From NCBI RefSeq assembly GCF_007641255.1, contig NZ_CP036259.1, positions 2,728,001 through 2,792,000 on the forward strand: 64,000 bases of DNA. Direction: 5' to 3'. The stretch comes from Sporomusa termitida. GTDB taxonomy: Bacteria; Bacillota; Negativicutes; Sporomusales; Sporomusaceae. Under the pieces are notes generated by a model. That model was not told the DNA's origin. It made no database searches and worked only from the letters and a program-made list of their open reading frames with translations. Shown piece by piece: positions 19,802-59,471 of the stretch. Positions within the stretch are counted from its first letter, which is position 1. Each line of letters starts with the position of its first letter. Made by a program: the position numbers and the translations under genes.

Positions 19802-19946
19802 TAAACTAATCGTTGATAAATTTCTAAAGCTTGCCTTATCCGTATCACGAAAATCTTACACGATCTTTCAATGGCTTCGCAATGTACTGTACATTTCAGG
19901 AGGATATTTATTAAAACTGGTAATTCCAACTGTTTACAAAAATAAA

Positions 19947-19992
19947 CAACCCTGAACTTGCTTTCTGATAACGAAGAAGCAATTCAGGGTTG
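19947..19992 (-). terminator. Terminator-like hairpin
   Basis: CAACCCTGAA and TTCAGGGTTG arms with additional pairing inside; TTTATTTTTG follows on the minus strand. It may back up termination of the non-coding RNA transcribed toward it. Between 19802 and 20137 nothing else was recognised. Confidence 0.6.
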
Positions 19993-20137
19993 GTATGCCT
20001 ACTAGATCATCATTCTATTGTAAGTAGGCTTCTCTATGAAGACCTGTTTTTCCCCTTACCTACTGCTGTAATTTTATAAGCAAAGCATTCATGGACGCTG
20101 ACGCGGTGTCCACTTGATTAGATTCGTAGAAAAACAA

Positions 20138-20387
20138 AAGGAGAAAGGTTTCCCCTTCTCCTTTTTAAAGCGAGCATCCTTACAGCCATCTTTCACTTAA
20201 CAGAGTGATCCATTAAGCGGAGCGGAACAAACTTTCTTTTCGGACAATCGAAATCGGTCAACTCACATTAACAAAAAAGCGACTACCGTCTGGACTGGTT
20301 AACAACTTACAAAAACCTCAGAAACCTGAATTCCCAACATTCTCGCGATACTGTAAAACCCGTAGTCGCTGTAAGGTTGCTCGCTCT
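20138..20387 (-). ncRNA. Structured non-coding RNA with own promoter and terminator
   Basis: On the minus strand a TTGACA (20416-20421), 17-bp spacer and TAGTCT (20393-20398) precede a transcript starting near 20387. Its 5' end (20368-20385) pairs with 20169-20186 over 18 positions with one mismatch. Inside, GCGACTAC (RNA 5' side 20369-20362) pairs with GTAGTCGC (20286-20279). The RNA ends with AAAAGGAGAA / TTCTCCTTTT and a T-rich tail at 20138-20168. No ORF is present. The closing stem plus internal branches recall large regulatory RNAs of Firmicutes (raiA-type or 6S-like), but I cannot assign the class. Confidence 0.7.
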
Positions 20388-20392
20388 ACTAT

Positions 20393-20421
20393 AGACTAAC
20401 ATGATGCCGGAACATTGTCAA
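20393..20421 (-). promoter_or_regulatory. Promoter of the non-coding RNA
   Basis: TTGACA-N17-TAGTCT; the predicted start point falls at the first base of the closing helix. From 20422 to 20734 no gene or clear signal was found. Confidence 0.6.
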
Positions 20422-20734
20422 TATGATTCACATCCAAAGCCCTGCTCAAGCCCTGAAATCGGCTCCTTGAAACACAGAAAGTCCGCATCAGCGAATAGCT
20501 GGCCGATTTTTCCTCCAACTACGCCGTTAGTATTGATTACATAATAAAAAACATCACCCCGTGAACTGTTCTAGAACAACGGACAGGAAAATTCGAATGG
20601 AGATCATAGGTTCCCTGACTCCTTGATGTTTAGCCGTGGACCGGCATTTACCGGTTGCGGTCGTCGCTAAAGCGCATTTTCAGGATCGGTTAATTGACCC
20701 GGTCATGGGCCATCTCGTTTCGGAAAAGATCATC

Positions 20735-59167: not shown

Positions 59168-59444
59168 ACTGTTACCTCCTAGTATTCTTCAGTTCATTCT
59201 TGCGTAATCATTTTCTAAGCATCATGCATGCATCATGCATGAGTTATCTAGGCAATAAAAAATGCAGGCCACAAGTCAGCAATGCGGGCTTGGGTCTGCA
59301 TAATCAACGAGAAAAAGACACGCCAGAGAAAGGGATAGCCACAAAAGGCTACTCCTCGCCAGTATCCATGTCCCAATTCGTAAAATTAAGCACAACAAAA
59401 AAGCCCACAGTTGTGGATGGTTCTACCGCTTTTTTATTGCTGGC

Positions 59445-59471
59445 TTATCTAATACGAATGGAATGCAACAT
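59445..59471 (-). CDS. Leader peptide MLHSIRIR
   Basis: ATG 59471 behind AAAGGAGATGCCATATCT. Eight residues then TAA, immediately before the terminator hairpin. Confidence 0.5.
   Translation of the reverse strand: MLHSIRIR

Follow-up and report, generated by a model that had tools for sequence, protein, structure and literature searches.

Does the segment at positions 20138-20421 of the window (the whole stretch of 64,000 nt from Sporomusa termitida analysed here) encode a stand-alone structured RNA, and to which class would such an RNA belong? A sequence-only reading of this DNA had proposed a large structured RNA gene with a dedicated promoter and terminator, and all of these elements could be located in the sequence (Table 1). 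The transcript had also been described as free of ORFs, and no overlapping ORF of at least 60 aa was found. No strand had been given; the RNA gene lies on the minus strand.

Table 1. Elements of the RNA gene, in window coordinates.
Feature	Position	Strand	Evidence or remark
Promoter	20393..20421	-	TTGACA 20421-20416, N17, TAGTCT 20398-20393; TG of an extended -10
ncRNA core, 217 nt	20169..20385	-	Model R1, 228.8 bits (the window sequence itself is among the R1 members); fold z; homologs
Closing helix P1, 5' strand AGCGAGCAACCTTACAGC	20368..20385	-	Covaries with 20169-20186
Helix P2, 5' strand GACT	20364..20367	-	Pairs with 20293-20296
5' arm hairpin (P4/P4b region)	20306..20347	-	Family form TTGCA...GGAAA...TTTCC...TGCAA
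Helix P2, 3' strand AGTC	20293..20296	-	Pairs with 20364-20367
U-rich linker GACGGTAGTCGCTTTTTTGTT (family form GGRUAGUGUUUUUUGUUU)	20270..20290	-	No supported pairing partner
Variable 3' domain, with hairpin 20196-20217	20187..20269	-	Family-wide mean conservation, 0.37 bits per column
Closing helix P1, 3' strand GCTGTAAGGATGCTCGCT	20169..20186	-	Covaries with 20368-20385
Intrinsic terminator directly 3' of P1	20130..20166	-	13-pair hairpin 20165-20136 and T-run

Strand, Promoter and Terminator

Folded together with its terminator, the minus-strand RNA reaches -98.3 kcal/mol (z = -6.1), and none of 200 shuffled sequences was equally stable. The plus strand was dropped as the RNA strand, since the plus-strand stretch that was folded gave a weaker result (z = -2.2). 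In other family members the z-scores are moderate (sense -2.9, antisense -3.2), and because their sense folds are no better than the antisense ones, fold energy alone leaves the strand unsettled. Read on the minus strand, the helices contain 100 G.U pairs and 30 A.C mismatches, an excess that favours an RNA on this strand, although the strand is also rich in G+T.

The promoter of the window copy ends 7 nt before the closing helix P1. Across the 42-member alignment (A9), the promoter takes the form TTGNNN-N17-TANNNT with the TG of an extended -10, and for 39 of the 42 homologs the best promoter shows a spacer of 17 nt, its -10 stopping exactly 7 nt short of the first base of the helix. At the other end, the terminator begins within a few nucleotides of the 3' strand of P1 in the 42 members; hairpins of -15 kcal/mol or lower occur within 45 nt past P1 in 41 of them, 29 of these being followed by a T-run under the rule used. 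As judged from these elements, it is confirmed that the window holds a stand-alone structured RNA gene on its minus strand, and from promoter and terminator we infer that it is transcribed. Downstream of the terminator, the same strand carries two more hairpins (window 19935-20035), one of which (AACCCTGAA...TTCAGGGTT followed by GTTTATTTTTG) also has the shape of an intrinsic terminator.

Secondary Structure and Covariation

Throughout the family the elements follow one order: promoter, 5' strand of P1, P2, 5' arm, P2', unpaired linker, 3' domain, 3' strand of P1 and terminator. The sequence-only reading had made its claim depend on covariation in homologs, and the helices do covary. In the 31-pair structure 92.6% of cells are paired (slid controls, at most 54%), with 70 double-change cells against 24.5 ± 5.9 after shuffling (0 of 500 shuffles reached the observed value) and 14 pairs with double changes against 8.5 ± 1.7; alignment A9 (n = 42) was fitted to the structure, so that these counts lean towards it, and the slides and shuffles serve as the control.

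The closing helix had been described as spanning 18 positions, and 17 of these are paired in the window, where AGCGAGCA.CCTTACAGC (20385-20368) faces GCTGTAAGG.TGCTCGCT (20186-20169) with one A.A mismatch. The family form of P1 comprises 16-17 bp of nearly fixed sequence (5' strand AGCACCATCCTTAYAG, 3' strand CTRTAAGGATGGTTGCT); 96.3% of its cells are paired and double changes occur at five pairs, one of which is U-A in 23 members and C-G in 19. The second long-range helix of that reading (20279-20286 with 20362-20369) fared worse. The 8-nt complementarity GCGACTAC/GTAGTCGC exists, but as a conserved helix it was rejected: no compensatory change was seen among 42 homologs, and pairing reached 61.9%, compared with 63.0% in shuffles. 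It competes with P2, which is the conserved pairing, with 86.9% of cells paired, double changes at three of four pairs and slid controls at no more than 45%; P2 is also present in the minimum-energy fold of the window.

In the two helices of the 5' arm 88% of cells are paired, and six of ten pairs show double changes. Of the unpaired parts of the RNA, the linker is conserved best, with 1.6-2.0 bits in the GU-GU columns and the U-run. The 3' domain differs in length among members, and at one locus (L055, from about 1500 towards lower coordinates, minus strand) it is enlarged by a tandem array of repeats, each about 37 nt long (GTCAGTAGTTTGTTTGCAAGTAGTGARCGTTAGYTAA).

Distribution of the Family

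A BLAST search of 60 relatives gave six matches, three of them close copies (86-87%) and three partial. Covariance models reached further: R1, built from six sequences, gave matches in 33 of 380 Negativicutes genomes, and R2, built from twelve diverse sequences, in 49 of the same 380, including all nine genomes of the window's genus. With R2, RNA-bearing genomes carry one to four copies, mostly one or two, and sequences outside its training set scored 55-96 bits, apart from one that reached 114. Scanning named genomes for a pattern added Lucifera butyrica, Propionispora and Anaerospora hongkongensis, as well as several MAGs of Pelotomaculum and one each of Heliobacteriaceae and Clostridia, and R2 confirmed these members at full length. 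The phylum to which a Pelotomaculum genome belongs was sampled evenly, and 6 of the 299 genomes had the RNA. The window RNA almost certainly belongs to an RNA family whose hosts are anaerobes, spore formers for the most part, among the Negativicutes and the Clostridia-type Bacillota.

Gene Neighbourhood and History of the Copies

The window copy is flanked by two genes, one with a Dabb domain and the other without a Pfam match, and across the family the adjoining genes are conserved only within genera. Since the neighbours are not conserved and the RNA contains no ORF, it probably acts in trans.

The same genome has a second copy (C1:785255), which clusters with the copies of its genus and shares a downstream HAD-like gene with several of them. 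The window copy, 54% identical to it, groups instead (support 1.0) with copies of two other families, to which it is 87-89% identical. Its homology to these copies covers no more than the promoter-RNA-terminator unit, except in one case (L003), where about 90 nt on the 3' side are also partly shared. The pattern fits a subtype that may have been gained horizontally as a whole RNA gene, beside the genus-typical copy.

Several further observations concern the surroundings of family members. The closest copy from another family (genome G026; L003 537-884 and 2084-3277, both minus strand) has a seryl-tRNA synthetase gene on one side and, on the other, a partial duplicate of the 3' end of that gene. 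In several genomes (loci L026/L078, L031, L073, L077 and L112), the RNA gene is found within about 0.1-2 kb of RNase P RNA, 6S RNA, or tRNA and SRP RNA. In Rfam scans of homologous loci, RNase P, SRP RNA, 6S, tRNA or introns turned up in the vicinity, and none of them overlapped the RNA element. Two genomes carry paralogous copies 11-18 kb apart (G008:C58 at 41899 and 59542; G015:C7 at 41372 and 52495), which suggests local duplication or an island. Elsewhere in the window, 59255-59468 on the minus strand is a full-length match to the Rfam family RF02862, 'Enterococcus sRNA 1300' (86.8 bits; gathering score 48.8), in a Negativicute, far beyond the host range that the family name implies.

Alternative Explanations

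A widespread class such as raiA or 6S, or else a new one, had been envisaged for this RNA; the new one holds, and raiA, 6S and OLE are unsupported. The Infernal check against Rfam proposed for these three classes gave no gathering-level match at the window locus in Rfam 15, and a scan of 20060-20500 down to E <= 10 returned only a sub-threshold plastid 3'UTR match that covers the terminator and is attributed to chance. A Pelotomaculum member likewise gave chance matches only, and scans of homologous loci gave no gathering-level match overlapping the RNA. Candidates were rejected individually: raiA (RF03072; gathering score 101.3 bits) did not match anywhere in 20060-20500 with the threshold relaxed to E <= 10, 6S RNA (RF00013; 46.4 bits) has none at the locus, and OLE RNA, at about 600 nt, compares with a 217-nt core plus terminator and gave no Rfam match. 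A bacterial Y RNA was dismissed with no Rfam match and a Ro60 orthologue (TROVE, PF05731) in 0 of the 60 relatives' genomes. The genome has a true raiA (C1:3505758, 194 bits) and three 6S RNAs elsewhere, with no match at the locus, and the window RNA is therefore neither. A divergent member of one of these or another known class, although alike in size, closing helix, own promoter and terminator, is very improbable. A cis-acting leader or riboswitch of the adjoining gene would likewise be structured and linked to a terminator, but the downstream genes vary among genera and point either way, a terminator stands at the end of the copies, with no antiterminator seen to compete with it; such a leader is extremely unlikely. 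Palindromic ends might also mark a miniature transposable element, in which the closing helix would be terminal inverted repeats recognised as DNA. The window subtype does recur in different families at 87-89%, its flanks having little homology or none, and a few genomes hold two to four copies. Most genomes, however, hold one or two; the internal helices covary, the promoter is fixed 7 nt ahead of the helix with a terminator on the 3' side, and one strand has more G.U pairs than A.C mismatches. Phage or plasmid origin was rejected as well: phage records gave no family match, the single match in plasmid records covers the terminator only, and eight viral contigs with the short pattern contain no family member by R2. 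A miniature transposable element is regarded as very unlikely.

The reading that competes more seriously with a protein-bound RNA is a base-pairing sRNA, probably assisted by Hfq, with the linker as its seed for mRNAs. The linker tops the conservation of the unpaired parts, and 54 of 60 relatives have Hfq, among them all RNA-bearing genomes that are near-complete. Hfq is thus possible as a partner but not indicated, being too common to discriminate. A genus-wide search for exact complements of the linker gave no widely shared target. Outside the known RNA copies there were 14 such matches against one in the control, mostly within unrelated ORFs, and sharing was seen only for the murE coding sequence, in three close species; one match (G006:C35) resembles the copy at G008:C81 and looks like a further RNA copy. 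A seed carrier, moreover, would hardly need the strictly conserved helix sequence and the 5' arm. A base-pairing sRNA of this kind is judged rather unlikely. A CsrA sponge was also considered and rejected, the GGA motif being barely above shuffles (3.6 versus 3.0).

Possible Role and Significance

Among Negativicutes, Spo0A was detected in 44 of 49 RNA-bearing genomes and in 12 of 331 without the RNA, counts that ignore phylogeny. At the family level the link is weak: one family (f29) has the RNA with Spo0A not detected, and about seven families have Spo0A without the RNA. The link to sporulation is suggestive, and shared ancestry could explain the co-occurrence.

Taken as a whole, the explanation considered best, and rather likely, is a trans-acting structured ncRNA gene (about 220 nt plus terminator) of an undescribed family, together with the role proposed here. 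The sequence itself shows the layout: the vegetative-type promoter places the 5' end of the RNA at the conserved closing helix, the covarying 5' arm and then the variable 3' domain come next, and the intrinsic terminator closes the transcript. The proposed mode of action is tentative. Transcription by the vegetative sigma factor may yield a stable and abundant RNA. P1 and the 5' arm may act as a scaffold of near-fixed sequence recognised by a protein, and the unpaired linker may be the working site, in contact with a protein such as Hfq or with a partner RNA. In its likeliest role, the RNA would be bound by a protein and act as a general regulator, either of growth phase or of sporulation entry, with an effect perhaps like that of 6S or raiA/ModT and no relation to either. 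In its boldest form, the proposal is of a new major ncRNA class across Negativicutes and Pelotomaculum-type Clostridia, which as a core RNP regulator would control the change from growth to sporulation and back, the single-stranded linker being its working site; this is conceivable, and is offered as a conjecture.

Structured RNA classes without a protein-coding neighbour are rarely as widely conserved as 6S or raiA, and those that are have opened new biology. The present family stands out by its near-invariant helix sequence, fixed promoter and conserved single-stranded motif, and by occurring mostly together with Spo0A. It supplies a concrete gene that can be deleted in cultured relatives (Propionispora, Anaerospora, Lucifera) and a covariance model for addition to RNA catalogues.

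Comparison with Known RNA Classes

No description of the family was found in Rfam 15 or in the open-access literature searched. Two surveys of structured RNAs mention Negativicutes only for other motifs (PMC6429828, PMC8632094), and a literature search with the conserved 11-mer matched 35 papers, the listed ten being unrelated.

OLE resembles the window RNA as a large structured RNA of anaerobic Bacillota. In bacterial Y RNA the ends pair and the internal domain is variable, an arrangement that the window RNA shares. 6S RNA is of similar length, with ends paired in a long helix and a sigma-70-type promoter, but it is a long rod with one bubble, whereas the window RNA branches in its 5' arm and has a U-rich linker that is conserved. 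Like the window RNA, raiA/ModT is structured, stands alone, measures about 200 nt and occurs in Bacillota; the C. difficile RNA works in trans and is required for normal sporulation (PMC11706538). The two differ in their helices and conserved stretches, with no sequence or covariance match between them. The architecture of own promoter, closing helix and terminator is of a known kind, and the family itself appears to be new.
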